A DNA stretch of 23,724 bases from Pseudomonadota bacterium (GTDB taxonomy: Bacteria > Pseudomonadota > Gammaproteobacteria > Burkholderiales > Gallionellaceae), in assembly GCA_021847165.1 (NCBI GenBank), contig JAJZUH010000006.1, positions 1 to 23,724 on the forward strand, read 5' to 3'. This document shows, in pieces, positions 1 to 15,267 of the stretch (within the stretch, counting starts at the first letter, position 1; each line of letters starts with the position of its first letter). Under the pieces are notes generated by a model. The model saw only the letters and a list, made by a program, of their open reading frames with translations, had not been told where the DNA came from and did not search any database. The translations under genes were made by a program, and so were the position numbers.

Positions 1-1206
1 TTCCCGTTGCTGGGTAAACACGTTGAGGTGAAGTGCAAAGCCTGTCACCCCAATGAAAAATTCAAGGATACACCGGTCCAGTGCAATGAGTGCCACAAGA
101 AGGACGACAAGCACAAGGGTAACTTCGGGCCCAAATGCGAAACCTGCCACAATGAAAAGAGCTGGAAAGAAATTCTGTTCGACCATGACAAGAAAACCAG
201 ATACCCGTTGCTCGGGAAGCACAGTGAAGTGAAATGTGTGAGTTGCCACAAAGGGAACCTGTATCAGGAAAAACTGAAGACCAACTGTGTTTCGTGTCAC
301 CAGAAGGACGACAAGCATAAGGGCAAGTTCGGGCCCAAGTGCGAGACTTGCCATATCGAGCGCGGCTGGAAGGACATTCCTTTCGATCACGACAAGAAGA
401 CCAGATTTCCCTTGCTCGGCAAGCATCGTGATGTCAAATGCAATGCCTGCCATAAAGGCGATTTGTATAAAGACAAGCTGAAGACAGACTGCTACTCCTG
501 TCACCAGAAGGACGACAAGCACAAGGGCAATTTCGGCTCCAAATGCGAAACCTGCCATATCGAGAAGAGCTGGAAGGAAATCCTGTTCGATCACGACAAG
601 AAGACCAAGTATCCATTGCTGGGCAAGCATCGCGATGCCAAGTGCGTCAGCTGTCACAAGGGGGATCTGTACAAGGACAAACTGAGGTCCGATTGCTACT
701 CATGCCACCAGAAAGACGACAAGCACGAAGGGCAGGAGGGCAGGAAATGCGAAACCTGCCACCACGAACAATCATGGAAGAAAACCGACTTCAATCATTT
801 GATGTCGCGCTTTCCGCTGACCGGAAGCCATATGCTGACGGAGTGCAAGAAATGCCACTCGACTATCAGATACAAGGACGCCAAGTCGGACTGCTGGTCA
901 TGCCACGAAAAGCAGGATGTGCATAAACGCACGCTTGGGATGGGCTGCGAATCCTGCCATAACACGCGCGATTGGCGGGACTGGGATTTCGACCATGATA
1001 AAACGAACTTCAAGTTGCAAGGGAAGCACAAGGAGTTGCGCTGTGCGGATTGTCACAAGACACCGGTGACCAAGAAGATGGTGCTCGCCGCGAGCTGTGT
1101 CAGCTGCCATGAAAAGGACGATAAACACGACGGTGCATTTGGCAGACGATGCGAGCAGTGCCATGTCGGATCATCGTGGAAGACCATCACCGGATCGGGA
1201 TGGAAA
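1..1206 (+). repeat. Six tandem 198-204 bp coding repeats (three-heme modules)
   Basis: Units begin at the aromatic residue of the [FY]PLLGKH motif at 1, 202, 406, 610, 811 and 1009, giving spacings of 201, 204, 204, 201 and 198 bases. The first four units are close at nucleotide level; for example the stretch encoding KDDKHKG recurs almost base for base near 100, 305 and 510. Units 5 and 6 retain the heme and histidine positions but differ elsewhere. The pattern suggests recent duplication or gene conversion at the N-terminal side and an older C-terminal end. The array continues upstream of the window. Confidence 0.9.
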
Positions 1207-1245
1207 GAGATCAAGATCGGCGGACAACGCTGGATCCAGCAGTAG
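1..1245 (+). CDS. Multiheme c-type cytochrome, 3' part (at least 18 hemes, six three-heme modules)
   Basis: The gene enters from the left edge: the reading frame is open from base 1 and begins inside a repeat, so the true start and signal peptide lie upstream. The visible 414 residues hold 18 CxxCH heme-binding motifs, three in each of six modules. Each module runs FDH, GKH, CxxCH, CxxCH, DKH, CxxCH, so each three-heme module comes with three non-motif histidines, fitting bis-His low-spin hemes. The protein is very rich in Lys and Asp, and ends in a short heme-free tail (WKEIKIGGQRWIQQ). Modules 1-4 are nearly identical; 5 and 6 have diverged. By family knowledge such proteins are periplasmic or extracellular electron carriers. 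Next to a second cytochrome and a porin it is probably one side of a trans-outer-membrane conduit. Which side cannot be decided without the N terminus. Confidence 0.93.
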   Translation, partial: FPLLGKHVEVKCKACHPNEKFKDTPVQCNECHKKDDKHKGNFGPKCETCHNEKSWKEILFDHDKKTRYPLLGKHSEVKCVSCHKGNLYQEKLKTNCVSCHQKDDKHKGKFGPKCETCHIERGWKDIPFDHDKKTRFPLLGKHRDVKCNACHKGDLYKDKLKTDCYSCHQKDDKHKGNFGSKCETCHIEKSWKEILFDHDKKTKYPLLGKHRDAKCVSCHKGDLYKDKLRSDCYSCHQKDDKHEGQEGRKCETCHHEQSWKKTDFNHLMSRFPLTGSHMLTECKKCHSTIRYKDAKSDCWSCHEKQDVHKRTLGMGCESCHNTRDWRDWDFDHDKTNFKLQGKHKELRCADCHKTPVTKKMVLAASCVSCHEKDDKHDGAFGRRCEQCHVGSSWKTITGSGWKEIKIGGQRWIQQ

Positions 1246-1387
1246 TTTTCGGAATCGGATCGAGTCATGCAATTCCCCCCACGAGCAGGTGTGGCACTGC
1301 CCGGCATTCATTTGGATTCGCAACCTTAAGAAATCATTGTGGTTTTAGTCTGTTCGGATACGCCGCCATTCGTCTGTCCTCGGCATA

Positions 1388-1421
1388 ACGGATAAACGGC
1401 CCTTCCATCCGTCAGGTTTTT
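1388..1421 (+). terminator. Weak candidate terminator in the gap between the two cytochrome genes
   Basis: A 6-bp inverted repeat, ACGGAT (1388-1393) and ATCCGT (1407-1412), encloses a 13-base loop and is followed by CAGG and five T (1417-1421). The long loop and short stem make it a poor intrinsic terminator. It is the only such structure I see between the genes. The rest of the 294-base gap (1246-1539) shows no credible small gene. A TCTAAT at 1456-1461 could be a -10 box for the downstream gene, but its best upstream -35 match, TTTACG, is only 15 bases away. Confidence 0.22.
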
Positions 1422-1499
1422 CACCTTAGACTCCTTTACGCATTCTTCACGACTCTCTAATGAGATTTTGATGATCGTGAGGGCTGCAAAAACACGACC

Positions 1500-1514
1500 T
1501 TCAGACGGTCTGAA
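1500..1514. promoter_or_regulatory. Perfect 15-base palindrome just upstream of the 25-heme cytochrome ribosome site
   Basis: TTCAGAC (1500-1506), a central G, and GTCTGAA (1508-1514) form a perfect inverted repeat with 7-base arms. It ends 12 bases before the ribosome-binding site AAGGGAG at 1527-1533. The position and symmetry suit a dimeric repressor operator or a short mRNA hairpin. With one central base it cannot fold as a perfect RNA stem-loop, which favours a DNA-binding site. No regulator is identified. Confidence 0.4.
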
Positions 1515-1539
1515 CCTGTGGGAACCAAGGGAGACATAG

Positions 1540-3765
1540 ATGAGCATGATGCGCTGCCGTATCCATAAAACGACAATTGCCTTGTTGCTTGGCCTGTTGT
1601 CCTGCTTTGCACAGACCGCCCAGGCGCAGACCATGGCCGGCCCTGTGCAAGCGCCAGGAAATGCCGCCCCGTTCGACCATTCCAAAACCGGATTCCTGTT
1701 GCGCGACATACATACCACGTTGCGGTGCGAACAATGCCACGTCGATGGCATCTTCAAGAACACCCCGAAAGACTGCGGCGGCTGTCACGCCATTGGAAGC
1801 CGCGTCGGCGCCACTCCCAAACCCGTGAATCATGTGCAGACCACCCAGTCCTGCGATACCTGCCACACGAGCCCGACCAGTTTCCTGGTGAAGAGCTTCA
1901 ATCACGTGGGCATGACCAATGTCGCCATCACGAATGGCTGTATCACCTGCCACAATGGACAGTCTTTCGGCGTCGTCAGCAAACCGGCCAACCACTTTCC
2001 TACTTTGCTGCCGTGCGAATCCTGCCATACCAGCACCAATACCTTCCTGAGCTGGAGAATGGATCACACCGGCCTGACCAGCAATTGCGCATCCTGCCAT
2101 AGCGGACAGTTCCCCGGGGTCGTCAGCAAGCCGGTGGCACATATCGCGACGACGGCCGATTGCGGCGTATGCCATAACACCAGTACATTCCTCGGATCGA
2201 CCTATAACCACTCCACGGTTGTCGCAGGTACCTGCGGCACCTGCCATCTGGGACAACAGCCGGGAGTAAAAGCGCAACCGGCATTCCACATTCCCACCCT
2301 GGGGGCCGGCAATGCCTGCGATGCATGCCATACGGCCACCAATACGGGCGGATTTACTTCTTTTCTGGGCGCGCTGTATGACCACATCACGCCGCTGTCC
2401 GCGGGCAATTGTTCGACCTGCCATAATGGCGCCTATCCCGGCGTGCTTGGCAAATCATCCTATGCGCTCCATGTCACGACTTCCGCGCAGTGCGATACCT
2501 GCCACACCTCGTCGAACACCAGCAACTTCACCACTTTCCTCGGCGTCGTGTATGCCCATCAACCGGCGGATGTAGGGAATTGCTCCACCTGTCACAACGG
2601 CACCACTGCAACGGGCAAGCCGGCCAATCACGTTGCATCGGCTGCACAATGCGATACCTGCCATACCTCGGCCACTACGGCGAATTACACGACCTGGCTG
2701 GGTGCCACCGTGGCGCACACGGCAGCTTTCCTGGGGACCTCCACGTGCGCTTCATGTCATAACGGCGTCAGTGCGACCGGCAAGCCGGCATACCACATAC
2801 CGACCACTGCGGGACTGGACTGTGGCAACAGCAGCTGCCATACCGCGACCAACACCAGCAACTACACGACCTTCTTTGGCGCCACGTTCACCCATGTGAC
2901 GATCACCACTCGCTGCGATGCGTGTCATAACGGGGTGAGTGCAACGGGCAAGTCGGCAACTCATGTATCTACAGTCCTCGATTGCGTCAGCTGCCATACC
3001 GCCACCAATACGGCCAATTACACCACTTTCCTGGGGGCGGTCTATACCCACAATCCGAACCCGCCAACGCCGGGCACTTGTGCGTCCTGTCATAACGGCA
3101 CGACTGCTACCGGCAAGCCAGCCAATCACATGGTGACCACGGCTTCCTGCGATGCCTGCCATACCCAGGCCAATACCGGAAATTTCACCACATTCCTCGG
3201 TGCGACCGGGGCGATGGCGCACACTGCAGCAATGGCCGGGACCTGCGCGTCCTGCCACAACGGCGCAGGTGCCAAGGGCTTGTCGACGGGGCACATCCCG
3301 GTCGCAGCGCTGTCGTGCGATGGCTGCCACGCCATGTACAACGGTACGACTGTCACGACATTTGCACCCGGCACCATGAACCATGCGCTGGTGACGGCAA
3401 CACGCTGCGACGTTTGCCATGGCGGTGCATATACGACACAAGGCTTGCAGTACGGCGGTGCCCAGGCCAAGGTATCCAACCACATTCCGACGACGATCAC
3501 GGCAGGACTGGATTGCACTACCTGCCATACCTCGCCGACCTACACCAGCTCCACCGGCTGGCTGCAAGAGAAGATGAATCACAACAATGCGCAAGGCGGC
3601 GGCGGGGGCGGAGTCTACTGCGTGAACTGCCATCTCTCCGGCGTGACCTATCTGGGCTCAATGCAGAAGAAGAGCCATAACGGCGCAAGCACCGCCAAGG
3701 ATTGCTCGAGTTCGAGCTGTCACAAACCCCTGGGAAGAACCGGGACGGCATACACCGTCTGGTAA
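1540..3765 (+). CDS. Secreted 25-heme c-type cytochrome
   Basis: This 741-residue protein starts at ATG 1540, six bases after AAGGGAG (1527-1533). An export signal of about 29 residues (basic start, Leu-rich core, cleavage after AQA) precedes the mature part; Cys22 within LLSC could alternatively be a lipobox. I count 23 CxxCH motifs and two CX4CH motifs (CGNSSCH from residue 428, CSSSSCH from residue 722), 25 potential hemes. The mature protein has exactly 25 further histidines, one per motif and mostly alternating with them. Residues 45-83 resemble a module of the upstream cytochrome; the rest is a different two-heme repeat. It is Thr/Ala/Gly/Asn-rich, unlike the Lys-rich upstream protein, and has a six-glycine run near residue 690. 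Probable role: an extracellular or porin-embedded electron conduit, inferred from the porin encoded next. Confidence 0.93.
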   Translation: MSMMRCRIHKTTIALLLGLLSCFAQTAQAQTMAGPVQAPGNAAPFDHSKTGFLLRDIHTTLRCEQCHVDGIFKNTPKDCGGCHAIGSRVGATPKPVNHVQTTQSCDTCHTSPTSFLVKSFNHVGMTNVAITNGCITCHNGQSFGVVSKPANHFPTLLPCESCHTSTNTFLSWRMDHTGLTSNCASCHSGQFPGVVSKPVAHIATTADCGVCHNTSTFLGSTYNHSTVVAGTCGTCHLGQQPGVKAQPAFHIPTLGAGNACDACHTATNTGGFTSFLGALYDHITPLSAGNCSTCHNGAYPGVLGKSSYALHVTTSAQCDTCHTSSNTSNFTTFLGVVYAHQPADVGNCSTCHNGTTATGKPANHVASAAQCDTCHTSATTANYTTWLGATVAHTAAFLGTSTCASCHNGVSATGKPAYHIPTTAGLDCGNSSCHTATNTSNYTTFFGATFTHVTITTRCDACHNGVSATGKSATHVSTVLDCVSCHTATNTANYTTFLGAVYTHNPNPPTPGTCASCHNGTTATGKPANHMVTTASCDACHTQANTGNFTTFLGATGAMAHTAAMAGTCASCHNGAGAKGLSTGHIPVAALSCDGCHAMYNGTTVTTFAPGTMNHALVTATRCDVCHGGAYTTQGLQYGGAQAKVSNHIPTTITAGLDCTTCHTSPTYTSSTGWLQEKMNHNNAQGGGGGGVYCVNCHLSGVTYLGSMQKKSHNGASTAKDCSSSSCHKPLGRTGTAYTVW
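2317..3330 (+). repeat. Two-heme coding repeat, units of 53-58 residues, in the 25-heme cytochrome
   Basis: Equivalent heme cysteines fall at residues 260, 318, 371, 428, 482, 537 and 593 (bases 2317, 2491, 2650, 2821, 2983, 3148, 3316). Each unit reads roughly as heme motif, T-x-NT-x-NFTTFLGA, an isolated His, GTCASCHNG, ATGKPANH, next heme motif. Every unit therefore carries two hemes and two free histidines. Looser versions of the same alternation extend back to about residue 100 and forward to the C terminus. Confidence 0.8.
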
Positions 3766-3797
3766 GCATTTGTCCAACCTCTTCATTAACGCCAGCG

Positions 3798-3827
3798 CCC
3801 GCTTCCATGCGCCACATTGGGAGCGGG
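3798..3827 (+). terminator. Hairpin between the 25-heme cytochrome and the porin gene
   Basis: CCCGCTTCC (3798-3806) pairs with GGGAGCGGG (3819-3827), a 9-bp stem with one G-U pair and a 12-base loop. Only three T follow, so it is not a strong intrinsic terminator. It may lower porin expression relative to the cytochrome or stabilise processed mRNA ends. It also buries the alternative TTG codon at 3817, one reason to place the porin start at ATG 3850. Confidence 0.45.
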
Positions 3828-3849
3828 TTTGCCCGGCCCTGAATCCATC

Positions 3850-6243
3850 ATGTGCCTGAAAACCTATCGAAAATTGCAGAAGCAACTGGTGCTGTGCTGC
3901 CAGCTCGTGCTGCTGTATGCGTTGCCGGGTTATGCCTCTGCCGAAATCATAGACGACATCTACCTGAAGACCGATGCGAATGGCGAGGTCGATGCAGTCA
4001 TCAAATTCTCCGTGCCTGTCCAGTACTCGCGCTATTTCCCGTTGCGGAAATCCGCCGACTTGTCGATCTATTTCAATGTACTGGGCAGTGTGGCCCGCGA
4101 CGAATGGCAGAACTACGAATCGCACAGGTCGCCCGCGTCAGAAATCGTGCGCGGATTCACGGTAACAACGCGCGACCTGAGTACCGGTCCGAAGATCGAG
4201 GTGCAATTCAGCCACCCGGTAGAATTCACCGTCTCTGCCGGCAAGAATGACCAGAGCATTCTGATCCACATCAAACCGGGCGTCGCTCCGCAGAAGAACG
4301 ACGGAAAGGCGACGGGAGCAACTGCATCAGGCTCGCCCGGCGTCGGCCCGGCAATACCGATCATGCCGGCACCTGCTGCGGCAGCGGCGCCGGCCGTCGC
4401 GTCCGGGCCAGTGAAACCCGCCTTGCCGCCAGTGCCTGCGCAAGCCATGCCGGCACAGCTGGGCGGGGCAGACGGCTTGCCGCTCTTTCCGATGATCGAG
4501 AAAGCGTCTCCGGAGAATGTCGGTTCCCCAACGGCAGGACCGCTTTCCGTGGCGGAACAGCGCAGGAAAGCCGACAGCCAGGCTGCAGAACTGATGGCGA
4601 AAGGGCGCGATGCGGTCCTGACCGGTGCCATGTTCACCGCAATCGACGCATTCAACAATGTCCTCAAGCTGCCACCGAATAAATACTCCGCAGCGGCCCA
4701 AGTGTGGATCGGCATCGCCAGGGAAAAATCCGGGCAACTGGCCAAGGCAAAACTGGAATACGAGTTGTACCTGAAACTCTATCCGGATGGGCAGGATACA
4801 ACCTGGGTCAGAGGGCGGCTCGCCAAATTGAATTCGATACAATATGCCGTCCCGTCAGCAATGCCTCAACCTGTCGCCGCGCCGCAAACTTCGGAATTCC
4901 ATACCGCCGAATACGGCAGCCTTTCCATGTATTACTACCATGGGGCGACCCAGACCGACACGGTGGCCACTGTCGGCGGTATCCAGACGCCATCCACCTT
5001 GTCGCTGACCGACCAGTCGGCGTTGATCACCAATGTGAGCATGACCGCACGTTCGTACAATAACGAGTACGACAACCGCCTCGTGTTCCAGGATTTCAAT
5101 GCGAAAAGTTTCTTGCCCGGGCAGGGAAACCAGAACCGCTTGAATGCGGCCTATTACGATTTCAAAAGCAGGGTCGACAACTATTCGGCGCGCATCGGAC
5201 GCCAGTCCGCAATGGGCGGCGGCGTACTCGGGCGGTTTGACGGCATCGCTGCCGGTTATGGCTTCATGCAGAACTGGCGCGTCAACATCGCCACGGGGCA
5301 GCTGTCCGACATCACCCTGGATTCCAAGCCCACGTTTCTCAGCCTCGGTGTGGATTTTGGCGTCAATAGCGCGCTGGGCGGTTCCGCCTATGTGATCAAT
5401 CAGAAAGCCGGGGGGATCACGGACCGGAAGGCTGCCGGGGGCTACCTGCGATATTTCGAGCAGGGCAAAACAGCGATGGCCATGCTGGATTACGACATGC
5501 AGTTCAAGGCGCTGAACATATTCACCCTGCAAGGTACGCTGAACTACGATTCGGGCACGGACTACAACTATCTGCTGGATCGTCGCAGAAGCCCGGTGTT
5601 GGACATCCGCAATGCGATCAACGGCACCACCTCGACCGTCAGCACCCTGCTGCAGAACGGCTGGACGACGAACGATCTGTTGATGCTGGCGAATGTACGC
5701 ACGGCGATCTCCAACCTCGCGATGGTCGGTGTGACACAACGCTTCAGGGAAAAGTGGCAGGCCGGAACGGATTTTATCGTTTCCAATACATCTGGTTTGC
5801 CGGCCAGCGGGACGCTCAATCCGGATGGCACAACCGGCCTGGAAGGTTTTGTGGCGGCGACGCCGTCCACAGGCAATACCTGGACAATCAACGGACGCTT
5901 GTCCGGCAGCGACGTCATTACCCAGCGCGACATGACGATGGGGACGCTGAGCTATACCAGGAGCCCCTTCCTGAGCGGCAAGTCGCTCCTGCTATACAAC
6001 CATTCCTATCCCCGCGAACTGTGGACGTTCGATAGCACGTTGCGGCTGTATTGGCAGACGGACAACACGGGCGGCAAGATCAGTACCACTTCGCCCGTCT
6101 TCAAGCTGGGTTATCGATTGAGAAACAGCCTGACCATGGAAGGGGAAGGGGGCATAGACTGGACCAGGACCAACCCCACCATTTCTACGCCATCGAACAC
6201 GACGCGGAAATACTTTTCCATCGGTTTGCGCTGGGATATCTGA
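3850..6243 (+). CDS. Outer-membrane beta-barrel porin with AMIN-like and TPR-like periplasmic domains
   Basis: From ATG 3850 this is 797 residues. The start is chosen because it gives a proper signal peptide (MCLKTYRK start, hydrophobic core, cleavage after ASA at residue 31); TTG 3817 would add 11 unlike residues. No strong ribosome site precedes either start. Order of parts: beta-rich AMIN-like domain (about 32-142), Pro/Ala-rich linker (143-235), TPR-like helical pair (236-328), then a long stretch of alternating amphipathic strands rich in Tyr, Asn and Gly (about 350-797) ending KYFSIGLRWDI, typical of outer-membrane barrels. It has no heme motif. By position it is the likely sheath through which a cytochrome spans the outer membrane; the periplasmic part could dock to peptidoglycan or to the Lys-rich cytochrome. 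The conduit role is inference; the barrel call is firmer. Confidence 0.85.
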   Translation: MCLKTYRKLQKQLVLCCQLVLLYALPGYASAEIIDDIYLKTDANGEVDAVIKFSVPVQYSRYFPLRKSADLSIYFNVLGSVARDEWQNYESHRSPASEIVRGFTVTTRDLSTGPKIEVQFSHPVEFTVSAGKNDQSILIHIKPGVAPQKNDGKATGATASGSPGVGPAIPIMPAPAAAAAPAVASGPVKPALPPVPAQAMPAQLGGADGLPLFPMIEKASPENVGSPTAGPLSVAEQRRKADSQAAELMAKGRDAVLTGAMFTAIDAFNNVLKLPPNKYSAAAQVWIGIAREKSGQLAKAKLEYELYLKLYPDGQDTTWVRGRLAKLNSIQYAVPSAMPQPVAAPQTSEFHTAEYGSLSMYYYHGATQTDTVATVGGIQTPSTLSLTDQSALITNVSMTARSYNNEYDNRLVFQDFNAKSFLPGQGNQNRLNAAYYDFKSRVDNYSARIGRQSAMGGGVLGRFDGIAAGYGFMQNWRVNIATGQLSDITLDSKPTFLSLGVDFGVNSALGGSAYVINQKAGGITDRKAAGGYLRYFEQGKTAMAMLDYDMQFKALNIFTLQGTLNYDSGTDYNYLLDRRRSPVLDIRNAINGTTSTVSTLLQNGWTTNDLLMLANVRTAISNLAMVGVTQRFREKWQAGTDFIVSNTSGLPASGTLNPDGTTGLEGFVAATPSTGNTWTINGRLSGSDVITQRDMTMGTLSYTRSPFLSGKSLLLYNHSYPRELWTFDSTLRLYWQTDNTGGKISTTSPVFKLGYRLRNSLTMEGEGGIDWTRTNPTISTPSNTTRKYFSIGLRWDI

Positions 6244-6283: not shown

Positions 6284-7333
6284 TCACGCTACCGTCACGG
6301 CCTTGTCCAGATAGACATCCTGGATCGCGTTGAGCAGCGCGACACCATCCTGCATCGGTTTCTGGAACGCCTTGCGGCCGGAGATCAGTCCCATGCCGCC
6401 CGCCCGCTTGTTGATGACCGCCGTGCGTACTGCCTGTTGCAGGTCGTTCTTGCCGGATTCGCCGCCCGAATTGATCATGCCGACCCGTCCCATATAGCAG
6501 TTCGCCACCTGGTAGCGCACCAGGTCTATCGGGTGGTCGGTGGTCAGGTCGCTGTAGACCTTCGGGCTGGTCTTGCCGAACTTGATGGCGTTGTAGCCGC
6601 CATTGTTCTCGGCCATCTTCTGCTTGACGATATCGGCGTTGATGGTGACGGCGAGGTGGTTGGCCTGCCCGGTCAGATCGGCGGCGACATGGTAATCCTT
6701 GTCCGCGGTCTTGAAGGCCGGGTTGCGCAGATAGGCCCACAGGATGGTCGCCATGCCGAGTTCGTGCGCGTGTTCGAACGCTGCGGAGATCTCCTGTATC
6801 TGGCGGCGCGAATGCTCGGAGCCATAGAAAACGGTCGCGCCGACGGCCACCGCGCCCATGTCGAATGCCTGGTCCACGCTGGCGAACAGGGTCTGGTCGT
6901 AGATGTTGGGGTAAGTCAGCATCTCGTTATGGTTGATCTTCACGATGAACGGGATCTTGTGTGCGTAACGGCGGGCTACCGAGCCCAGCACACCCAGCGT
7001 GGAAGCCACGCCGTTGCAGCCGCCCTCGATGGCGAGCCTGACGATGTTCTCCGGGTCGAAATAGATGGGGTTGGGGGCGAACGAGGCGCCGCCGGAATGT
7101 TCCACACCCTGATCCACCGGCAACAAGGAAAGATAGCCGGAATTCGCCAAACGGCCGTGTCCGTATAAAGCCTGCAGGCTGCGCAGGACGCCGGGTTTGC
7201 GATCCTTCACGGCCACCACGCGATCGACATAATCCGCCCCGGGCAAGTGCAGCGATTCTTTCGGAATGCCCGCACAACGGTGCTGCAACAGATGCTCTGC
7301 TTCTTCGCCCAGCAATTGCACGATATTCGTCAT
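6284..7333 (-). CDS. fbaB: Class I fructose-bisphosphate aldolase (DhnA/FbaB family)
   Basis: This 349-residue protein matches the DhnA-type class I aldolases in length and motifs. It cleaves or forms fructose 1,6-bisphosphate through a lysine Schiff base in the cytosol, serving glycolysis, gluconeogenesis or the Calvin cycle. Visible features are [12 protein letters not shown] at 71-82, IVKINHNE at 130-137, the likely Schiff-base Lys237 in INADIVKQK, and the phosphate-binding MINSGGESG near 286-294. The ATG at 7333-7331 follows GAGGAG with 8-base spacing. The gene is divergent from purT. In an autotroph it could serve carbon fixation, but no Calvin cycle gene is visible here. Confidence 0.93.
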
Positions 7334-11927: not shown

Positions 11928-13082
11928 ATGGACAAGGCAAGCATGATGCACTACCTGCCGCAGGTCGAGGCGGGAACCATCGAGCGCAAGCTGGCCGAAC
12001 TGCAGGCGCTGCACCCCGCGCTGGGCATCTGCGCGCTGCTGCCGGAGGCGGAAAAAGACAAGGTTCCGGTGTTGCAGGCGGTTTGCGCGCAACACAAGGT
12101 GCCGCTGGCCGGGGCGATCTTTCCGGCACTGGTGCGGGACGGCCAGTTCCTGACGGATGGCGTGTGGCTGCTGTGTTTCGAGCAGATGCCCTATTTCGCA
12201 CTGTACGACAACCTGCCGGCGGAAACGGCAGAGGCGGAACGCGCGGCTGAGAGGATCGCCAACGATGTCCGGGCCCAGATCGACCATGTGCCGGACCTCA
12301 CGCTGTTCATGCTGTTCGATGCCATGGTGCCGAATATCGGCACGTTGCTGGATACGCTCTATCTGCATCTGGCGAACCGGGTCCATTATGCCGGAGCGAA
12401 TGCGGGCAGCGAGACCTTCCAGCCGATGCCCTGCCTGTTCGATTCCTCCCGCACCGTGCAGAACGGGCTGCTGCTGATGTTGCTGACGCGGCACAAAGGG
12501 GCGATCCTGGAACATGGCTACCATGCCAATCCGCATACGTCCTATGCGACCTCGACCAAGGGCAACTGCATCTCGCAGATCGACTGGCGTCCCGCATTCG
12601 AAGTGTACCGTGAACTGGTGCGCGAGCATTTTGGCGAGGAGGTCACGGCGGAGAACTTCTATCAATATGGTGTCCATTTTCCTTTCGGCATCGTGCGCGC
12701 CAATCATCATGTGCTGGTGCGCATCCCGGTCATGCTGACGGAAGACGGCTCGCTGTTCTGCGTGGGGGAGGTGCCAGCCAATTCCGTATTGACGCTATTG
12801 AAAGCGCCGACCGTGCGCACGGTCGAGACCTTGCACAAGCTGCATGAAGGTCTGAACAAGCTGAATGGGGATGTCGCCGGCGCGGAATTGCTGCTGTTCT
12901 ATTGTGCGGGGAGGCGGCTGCATCTCGGGGGGGCAATGGCAACGACCGAACTGGAGGCGTTTAGCGGGCTGACCCGCGCCGGACGGGTTGCCGGTGCGCT
13001 TTCGCTGGGGGAGATCGGCGGGTCGACGGTGCAGGGCTATCCGCTCTTCCACAATGCCACGCTGGTCGCCGCGCGCTGGTAG
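11928..13082 (+). CDS. FIST domain sensory protein (FIST N and FIST C)
   Basis: A 384-residue soluble protein with the layout of a two-part FIST protein: an N-terminal domain with a GAIFPALV stretch and FDAMVPNIGTLLDTLY leading to a glycine-rich YAGANAGSETF core, then a C-terminal domain ending in GGSTVQGYPLFHNATLV, the usual FIST C ending. FIST domains are predicted small-ligand sensors in signal transduction proteins (family knowledge). No transmembrane segment or signal peptide is present. The start follows a weak AGCGGGG. The next gene begins one base after its stop, so the two are almost certainly co-translated and FIST probably supplies the input for the GGDEF-EAL protein. The ligand is unknown. 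Confidence 0.85.
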   Translation: MDKASMMHYLPQVEAGTIERKLAELQALHPALGICALLPEAEKDKVPVLQAVCAQHKVPLAGAIFPALVRDGQFLTDGVWLLCFEQMPYFALYDNLPAETAEAERAAERIANDVRAQIDHVPDLTLFMLFDAMVPNIGTLLDTLYLHLANRVHYAGANAGSETFQPMPCLFDSSRTVQNGLLLMLLTRHKGAILEHGYHANPHTSYATSTKGNCISQIDWRPAFEVYRELVREHFGEEVTAENFYQYGVHFPFGIVRANHHVLVRIPVMLTEDGSLFCVGEVPANSVLTLLKAPTVRTVETLHKLHEGLNKLNGDVAGAELLLFYCAGRRLHLGGAMATTELEAFSGLTRAGRVAGALSLGEIGGSTVQGYPLFHNATLVAARW

Positions 13083-13083
13083 C

Positions 13084-15267
13084 ATGGAACGCGACGACAT
13101 CCTGCCGGTACTGTACGACCTGGTCGTCACCATCGGCAGCGAAATCAGCGTCAAGCCGCTGCTGACGCGCACCTTGCAGCGACTGCTGTATCACACCTCG
13201 TTCTCCGCCGGATTCATCTGCCTGGATGTTGCTCCGTGCAATCAGGCGGGCGAATCGGTCGAAGTGCGCCTCGATGCGGTGGTGGGCGATTTCGACCTGA
13301 TCGGCGCGATCGGCAAGCATGTCGCCATGCCCTCCGCGCTGGTCTGCAAGGCGGCGGGGAACGAATCCGGACAGGCGGAATTGTTGTCGGCCTTGGGTTG
13401 TACCCAGGCGCGATACGGAGCCTATCTCAGACTCCCCATCGATCATCGCGGCGTGATCGTTCTTCTTGCGGCAGAGAAACCGGAGACAAGCCTGCCGTTG
13501 ATCACGATGCTGCAGCCGGTGCTGGCGCATCTGGCCAAGGCCATCGTGCTGTGCCGCAACAACGATGCGTACACCAGCGATCTGGTTTCGCAGCGCGATC
13601 TGCTGGAGCAGGTGTTCGAGAGCAGCTATTCCGGAGTGGTGATTACCGACGCCTCGCCGAACATCATCGAAGTCAACCCCGCGTTCACGCGCATCACCGG
13701 CTACGAAGCGGAAGAAGTGCATGGCAAGAATCCCCATCTGCTGGCATCCGGGCGTCACGACCACGTCTTTTACCAGAAGATGTGGGACGACATCACAGGC
13801 AGCGGGCATTGGGAGGGCGAGATCTGGAACCGGCGCAAAAACGGGGAGGTTTATCCAAGCTGGCTGAGTATCCATCGCGTGAATGACAAAGCCGGTACGC
13901 TGCTTTATTACGTCGGCCTGTTCTCCGATGTCAGCAAGCGCAAGGAAGCCGAGGCGCAGATACACCAGCTGGCTTTCTACGACCCGCTGACCAATCTGCC
14001 GAATCGCCGCCTGCTGATCGAGCGTTTGCAGCAGGCGTTCTCGCTGGAGGCCCGCACCGGGCAGCATGGTGCGGTGCTGTTCCTCGATCTCGACAATTTC
14101 AAGACGCTCAACGATACCAAGGGGCACGATGTCGGCGACCGCTTGCTGGTCGAAGTGGCACAGCGGCTCAATACCTGCGTGCGCGACGGCGATACGGTGG
14201 CGCGGCTGGGCGGCGACGAGTTTGTCGTGATCCTCGGCTCCCTGAGCCAGATATCGGATGAAGCGGCTGCCCAGGCGGATACGGTCGCCGAGAAGATACG
14301 CGACCTTCTGAGCCAGCCCTATCAACTGGGGCAGTATGTGCACTACAGCACGCCCAGCATCGGGATCGTGCTGTTTCGCGGTCATCAGCAAAGCCTGGAC
14401 GATGTGCTGAAATATGCTGATACCGCGATGTACCAGGCCAAGACCGCGGGGCGCAACACCATTCGTTTCTACGATCCGGTGATGCAGGCAGCCGTCGAGG
14501 CGCGCGCCGAGCTTGCGGAAGAGCTGAGGCATGCGCTCGAACGGCAGCAACTTTGCCTGCATTACCAGATACAGGTGGACAACCGGTCCCGTCCGCTCGG
14601 TGCAGAGATGCTGTTGCGCTGGCAGCATCCCCAGCGCGGACTGATCCCGCCGTCCCAGTTCATCCCCCTGGCAGAAGAGACCGGGCATATCGTTCCTATC
14701 GGCCTCTGGGTATTGCGGACCGCATGTACACAGCTCAAAGCCTGGCAAGGGGATGGGTTGACGCGCGACCTGACGCTGGCCGTGAACGTGAGTGCCAAGC
14801 AGTTCCGCAGCCCGAACTTCGTTGCGCAAGTGCAGCGCACGCTGCTGGAAACGGGGGCGAAGCCGGAGTTGCTCAAGCTCGAACTGACCGAAAGCATCGT
14901 GCTGGAGAACGTCGAAGATGCCATTGCCAAGATGCGCGAACTGAAACTGTCTGGCGTAAGTTTCTCGATGGACGATTTCGGCACGGGCTATTCCTCGCTG
15001 CAATACCTCAAACAGCTGCCGCTGGATCAGATCAAGATCGACCAGTCTTTCGTGCGCGACATCGTCAATGACGCAAACGATGCAGCCATCGTTCAAACCA
15101 TTATTGCGATGAGCGAAGTGCTGGGACTGGACGTCATCGCGGAGGGCGTGGAGAACGAAGCACAGCGCGAGTTCCTTGATTTGCGGGGTTGCCACGCCTT
15201 CCAGGGCTACCTGTTCGGCAGGCCGGTTCCGCTGGCCGAGTTCGAAAGCGTGCTGCGTTCGCTTTAA
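13084..15267 (+). CDS. GAF-PAS-GGDEF-EAL cyclic di-GMP signalling protein
   Basis: A 727-residue cytosolic protein starting at ATG 13084, one base past the FIST stop, the natural coupled start. Domains: GAF-like (about 1-165), PAS (about 173-283, with [20 protein letters not shown]), GGDEF (about 297-460) and EAL (about 475-725). The diguanylate cyclase site is an intact GGDEF at 376-380, preceded by RDGD at 367-370 at the exact five-residue spacing of an inhibitory I-site. The phosphodiesterase side has EML at 508-510 in place of EAL (a tolerated variant), plus [25 protein letters not shown] and QGYLFGRP. Both activities therefore look possible, with the net effect set by GAF, PAS and presumably FIST. 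Its TAA overlaps the queF stop from the other strand. Confidence 0.93.

Follow-up and report, generated by a model that had tools for sequence, protein, structure and literature searches.

A PCC3-type locus of the Gallionellaceae as a probable electron conduit across the cell envelope, with triheme modules in its periplasmic cytochrome

The 23,724 bases analyzed here (the window) make up the entire contig C96 (JAJZUH010000006.1) of a 69%-complete Gallionellaceae assembly and begin with two multiheme cytochrome genes followed by a porin gene. These very probably belong to a PCC3-type electron conduit across the cell envelope, orthologous to Slit_1446-1449 of Sideroxydans lithotrophicus ES-1 and acting as a general and possibly reversible conduit rather than as a dedicated Fe(II) oxidase. 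PCC3 systems combine an outer-membrane porin (POR) with very heme-rich periplasmic (PER) and extracellular (EXT) cytochromes and an inner-membrane protein (IMP); the median heme number is 21 in PER and 34 in the repetitive, Ser/Thr/Ala/Gly-rich EXT, while the conserved IMP of about 300 aa has five helices, two WX3HX13H motifs and an SGXXG motif (He et al., 2017; PMC5566968). The window holds the porin gene, a heme-rich and putatively periplasmic cytochrome retaining 18 of the 24 hemes of its closest orthologue, and a repetitive, putatively surface-located cytochrome with 25 hemes, with the IMP gene lying off the contig and its motifs present in relatives including Sideroxyarcus emersonii.

The preliminary description of this DNA had counted at least 18 and 25 heme motifs in the two cytochromes and placed an outer-membrane barrel after them, and these counts hold, with 18 CXXCH in the first cytochrome, 23 CXXCH plus two CX4CH in the second, and a third protein, with a signal-like N-terminus, for which a beta-barrel was modeled. 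That the two cytochromes are not chance frames is indicated by Pfam Cytochrome_C7 scores of 76.8 and 126.9 bits, respectively, against a cut-off of 24.8. The second cytochrome also matched TIGR04257 (46 bits, cut-off 40) and scored 55.3 bits, below the cut-off of 192.2, with TIGR03508 (MtrA/MtoA, DmsE family decaheme), a profile that returned no row for the full-length S. emersonii PER. The remaining part of the first cytochrome contains 36 histidines for 18 hemes, two per heme, and the second 50 histidines for 25 hemes when counted from 45 residues before the first heme, with one more in the signal-like N-terminus. Both cytochromes thus have one further histidine per heme motif, as bis-His ligation needs. 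Ser, Thr, Ala and Gly make up 46% of the window EXT, which is built with diheme repeats.

A search of 61 genomes (the window's own and 60 relatives) gave a porin match in 33, with 20 regions taken as stretches around matches. Of 121 loci found, 80 were kept for analysis; since the loci were found through the porin, their linkage to it holds by construction. Two of the genomes, G004 and G028, are taken to be S. emersonii and S. lithotrophicus ES-1 from identical IMP proteins. Complete relatives carry an IMP, a 24-heme PER, an EXT and a POR gene. The exact order IMP-PER-EXT-POR on one strand was seen at 28/80 loci, the four genes with a further cytochrome at six, and PER-IMP divergent from EXT-POR at three, all in Nitrospirota; at the other 43/80 loci one or more of the four genes was not seen in the scan, many of these lying at contig ends. 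Among 69 IMP sequences, drawn from the listed homologues and from the loci, two WX3HX13H motifs were present in 67 and SGXXG in all, and in an AF2 model (pLDDT 78) the motif-bearing helices fit TM3, TM4 and TM5 as described by He et al. (2017; PMC5566968). At one locus from a Sideroxyarcus metagenome-assembled genome (MAG), a further periplasmic-type cytochrome with 15 motifs before the contig end lies downstream of the porin (L062:12214-13421).

In a porin tree built by a quick method from 93 rows (79 different), the window grouped with S. emersonii (support 100) within a clade of 27 rows that also holds the Slit_1449 locus (SH-aLRT 98), while the Slit_0867 locus fell in a sister clade of 49 rows (support 97). 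The downstream flank of aldolase, PurT, VOC-type protein and AFG1 ATPase genes recurs at the ES-1 locus, as judged by length and N-terminus. The locus is thus the orthologue of the published second ES-1 cluster, Slit_1446-1449. As such the PCC3-type system suggested in the preliminary description is borne out by four genes in order at orthologous loci and by synteny with ES-1, while the electron uptake from Fe(II) or minerals proposed with it is doubtful. The two ES-1 clusters have been reported with 17/21 and 24/28 CXXCH (Zhou et al., 2022; PMC8788666), equal to the 21/17+1 and 24/28+1 hemes (PER/EXT) found at the G028 loci, and Hoover et al. (2023; PMC10734462) report the full PCC3 set from 26 Gallionellaceae genomes. 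The second ES-1 cluster shares with the window system its four genes and their order, the 24-heme PER, the porin clade and the flank, differing in its EXT (28+1 motifs against 23+2) and porin (53% identical), and the window contig is truncated. The closest named copy is that of S. emersonii (porin 93-94% and EXT 95% identical, with the same 25 motifs), where the operon is complete and its porin the only PCC3 porin of the genome, whereas the window is incomplete. ES-1 cluster 1 (Slit_0867-0870) resembles the window in gene kinds and order but belongs to the sister porin lineage (38% identity to the window porin), with a different genomic site and 21/17+1 hemes.

The contig begins inside the cytochrome gene, leaving the first frame of the window without its 5' end. 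The product of this frame is 97% identical to the C-terminal 414 residues of the 24-heme S. emersonii orthologue, from which it follows that six hemes and the IMP gene lie off the contig. Extending the locus leftward, as had been proposed, was possible through the relatives, which show the absent part, but not in the assembly itself. The start of the contig, within an array of similar triheme modules, may mark a point where the assembly broke at repeats.

PER is built from triheme c7-like modules in tandem, each about 68 residues long, like the triheme c7 'nanowire' cytochromes. In the first window cytochrome the heme spacing is periodic (16-18, 18 and 32-33 residues), and Cytochrome_C7 matched nine stretches of the S. 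emersonii PER. Of spacing periods one to four, three was the best in all 45 distinct complete PER of the loci and in 120/120 homologues, these being the best 120 of 7,372 from a separate protein search and partly the same proteins as those in the loci. Motif counts were multiples of three in 46/46 complete PER, being 21, 24 or 27 in 45 of them; the exception, L099, has 15 and starts near a contig end. Among the best 120 homologues the CXXCH count was divisible by three in 113, and 25, of unknown context, had more than 27 motifs, which argues against a strict rule of 21 to 27. The published PCC3 periplasmic counts are likewise 21, 24 and 27, and such numbers were suggested to span the periplasm (Hoover et al., 2023; PMC10734462), with triheme modules receiving no mention in the PCC3 passages of that paper or of He et al. 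(2017; PMC5566968).

The outer cytochrome varies more freely, with 8 to 63 hemes across loci and a spacing period of two in 48/61. Over 44 loci with both cytochromes complete, taking the largest EXT per locus, the coefficient of variation of heme number was 0.09 for PER and 0.50 for EXT, and a near-fixed inner number with a free outer one agrees with the assumed topology. After exclusion of 8/70 EXT and 8/54 PER cut by contig ends, histidines exceeded two per heme by 0-2 in 54/62 complete EXT and 26/46 complete PER. Two large EXT-type cytochromes were seen beside PCC3-like porins, one with 63 motifs in 1950 aa from an uncultured Nitrosomonadales (L073:1160-7012) and one with 47 motifs in Roseateles subflavus (L126:5979-9941).

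Among the closest known systems are the Geobacter cytochromes GSU1996 (12 hemes) and GSU2210 (27 hemes). GSU1996 likewise carries tandem triheme c7-type domains in a single chain but has one His-Met heme per domain (PMC10138318), whereas the histidine count of the window PER permits bis-His ligation at all hemes; and, unlike GSU1996, the window array is linked to a porin. The four triheme domains of GSU1996 form a 12 nm protein, judging by the title of its structure paper as cited in PMC10138318, and by proportion the eight modules of PER would measure about 24 nm.

The porin gene probably starts at ATG 3850, giving 797 aa, rather than at the mechanically called TTG 3817. Its product is predicted to comprise a beta domain (residues ~34-142), a low-confidence Pro/Ala-rich linker, a BamD/YbgF-like TPR region (~234-330) and a barrel (~351-797) of 22-24 strands, and homologues align along the entire protein length. 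The window porin gave no match to TIGR03509 (MtrB/MtoB/PioB) at E up to 0.1, nor did any of 21 PCC3 porins at E up to 0.01. MtrAB, MtoAB and PioAB also pair a porin with a periplasmic multiheme cytochrome, differing in their TIGR03509-type porins, their smaller cytochromes and the TPR arm of the window porin. MtrB is not known to have such an arm.

The gene cluster probably makes a heme-protein wire across the cell envelope. The IMP, with two putative HX13H heme-b sites seen in the relatives, would exchange electrons with the quinone pool, and the 24-heme PER, as a wire of eight triheme modules, would convey them through the periplasm. The barrel protein may anchor this wire at the outer membrane with its TPR arm as the periplasmic docking part, the 25-heme EXT projecting from the cell towards a partner, either solid or macromolecular. 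A more far-reaching account, which we put forward tentatively and at somewhat less than an even chance, would make PCC3 a module-built transmembrane wire in which the PER rod changes by whole triheme modules (7-9 in 45/46 complete copies) of ~3 nm each, taking GSU1996 as the model, and, at ~21-27 nm, spans both membranes without shuttles. The TPR arm would dock this rod to the barrel of ~22-24 strands and the outer antenna would grow mostly by diheme steps from 8 to 63 hemes, the whole serving as a general conduit of Gallionellaceae and nitrifying Nitrospira rather than as an iron oxidase.

Were the conduit instead dedicated to Fe(II) or mineral oxidation, EXT would receive electrons from Fe(II) or from solid iron for transfer inward, which we consider unlikely. 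PCC3 does occur in the iron oxidizers ES-1 and S. emersonii, the latter (called iron- and thiosulfate-oxidizing in a cited title; genome 99% complete) having one PCC3 porin only and no MtrB/MtoB-family match, although Cyc2 was not searched for; a part for PCC3 in the oxidation of iron or minerals is conceivable there. In Sideroxydans CL21 both PCC3 copies were expressed above the mean, and as iron-oxidizing ability appeared copy 1 went down and copy 2 up, the rise being significant for the copy-2 IMP but the change not for the other PCC3 genes (PMC12442390). In ES-1, however, thiosulfate gave higher expression of both clusters than did Fe(II)-citrate, and an FeCl2 spike was followed by a drop (Zhou et al., 2022; PMC8788666). 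The Slit_1446-1449 proteins except EXT were detected with little difference in level across all samples, whether on Fe(II)-citrate or on magnetites (PMC12016527). The ES-1 data thus leave the Fe(II) uptake suggested in the preliminary description weak, and a service of PCC3 in iron oxidation doubtful, in keeping with PCC3 sets in Nitrospirota and PCC3-like porin and EXT pairs in Roseateles and Caenimonas.

The same conduit might run outward, with quinol as the source of electrons that are delivered under oxygen shortage to Fe(III), humics or an electrode, a somewhat unlikely but substantial possibility favored by the resemblance of the IMP motifs to a di-heme-b, quinone-reactive protein (He et al., 2017; PMC5566968) and by the ES-1 expression data, in which thiosulfate exceeds Fe(II). 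Against it, the literature consulted reports neither reductive growth nor electrode reduction via PCC3, and direction is not readable from sequence. It is rather improbable that the cytochromes mainly store electrons, both at the surface and in the periplasm, and carry little through-current. The heme numbers are large, GSU1996-like triheme arrays have been discussed as capacitors (PMC10138318) and storage was named as a possibility for PCC3 by Hoover et al. (2023; PMC10734462), but a recognizable inner-membrane redox gene stands at 38/80 porin loci, and contig ends truncate many of the remainder.

Several points weigh against the general trans-envelope conduit preferred here. The IMP gene and the start of the PER gene were not found elsewhere in the 69%-complete assembly, and the IMP fold search was uninformative. 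Histidines exceeded two per heme by more than two (3-9) in 20/46 complete PER, a search of solved structures found no close relative for any of the four PCC3 proteins, and the placing of the PER wire inside the barrel is itself a contact that we infer. In addition, the ES-1 EXT stood at 0 in 8/8 proteome columns (PMC12016527).

Outside the Gallionellaceae, full, divergently arranged PCC3 sets were seen in Nitrospirota MAGs (L118, L122 and L128, one on a Nitrospira contig of 773 kb) and partial ones at L116 and L117. The porin of L118, from a Nitrospira MAG, had strong matches (66-100% identity) in 25/147 genomes of its family, its own included, and only weak ones in six further genomes of the 147; no publication on PCC3 in Nitrospira was among the matches listed in the literature search. 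A 6.1 kb contig assigned to Candidatus Wallbacteria (L115) carries a PCC3 porin whose sister in the porin tree, at support 100, is the porin of a Gallionella MAG (L121); the contig is perhaps misbinned.

PCC3 and its ES-1 cluster Slit_1446-1449 were already known, and the window is a well-supported further member. The modular design (triheme PER, diheme EXT, TPR arm of the porin) and the divergent Nitrospirota sets appear little described, lying outside the cited PCC3 accounts as far as these were available. The CL21 study of 2025 describes the function of PCC3 as unverified (PMC12442390). A modular wire opens direct tests via the triheme modules and the TPR arm, and S. emersonii, which is in culture, has a single PCC3 porin and shows no MtoB-family match, would be a clean setting for a functional test. 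Expression in ES-1 and the occurrence of copies in Nitrospirota caution against using PCC3 as a marker of iron oxidation.

Table 1. Features of the window, with positions counted from its first base.
Feature	Positions	Strand	Remarks
Periplasmic-type multiheme cytochrome, C-terminal 414 aa	1..1245	+	18 CXXCH left, six triheme c7-like modules, Lys-rich; 5' end off contig
Extracellular-type multiheme cytochrome, 741 aa	1540..3765	+	25 heme motifs, Ser/Thr/Ala/Gly-rich, diheme repeats, signal-like N-terminus
PCC3 porin, 797 aa	3850..6243	+	Signal-like N-terminus, predicted beta domain, linker, TPR, beta-barrel
Class I fructose-bisphosphate aldolase	6284..7333	-	Flank also at ES-1 locus; outside conduit

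Farther along the contig, a FIST-domain protein (11928-13082) is followed by a PAS-GGDEF-EAL protein (12988-15267), likely an ordinary pair for sensing and cyclic-di-GMP turnover.

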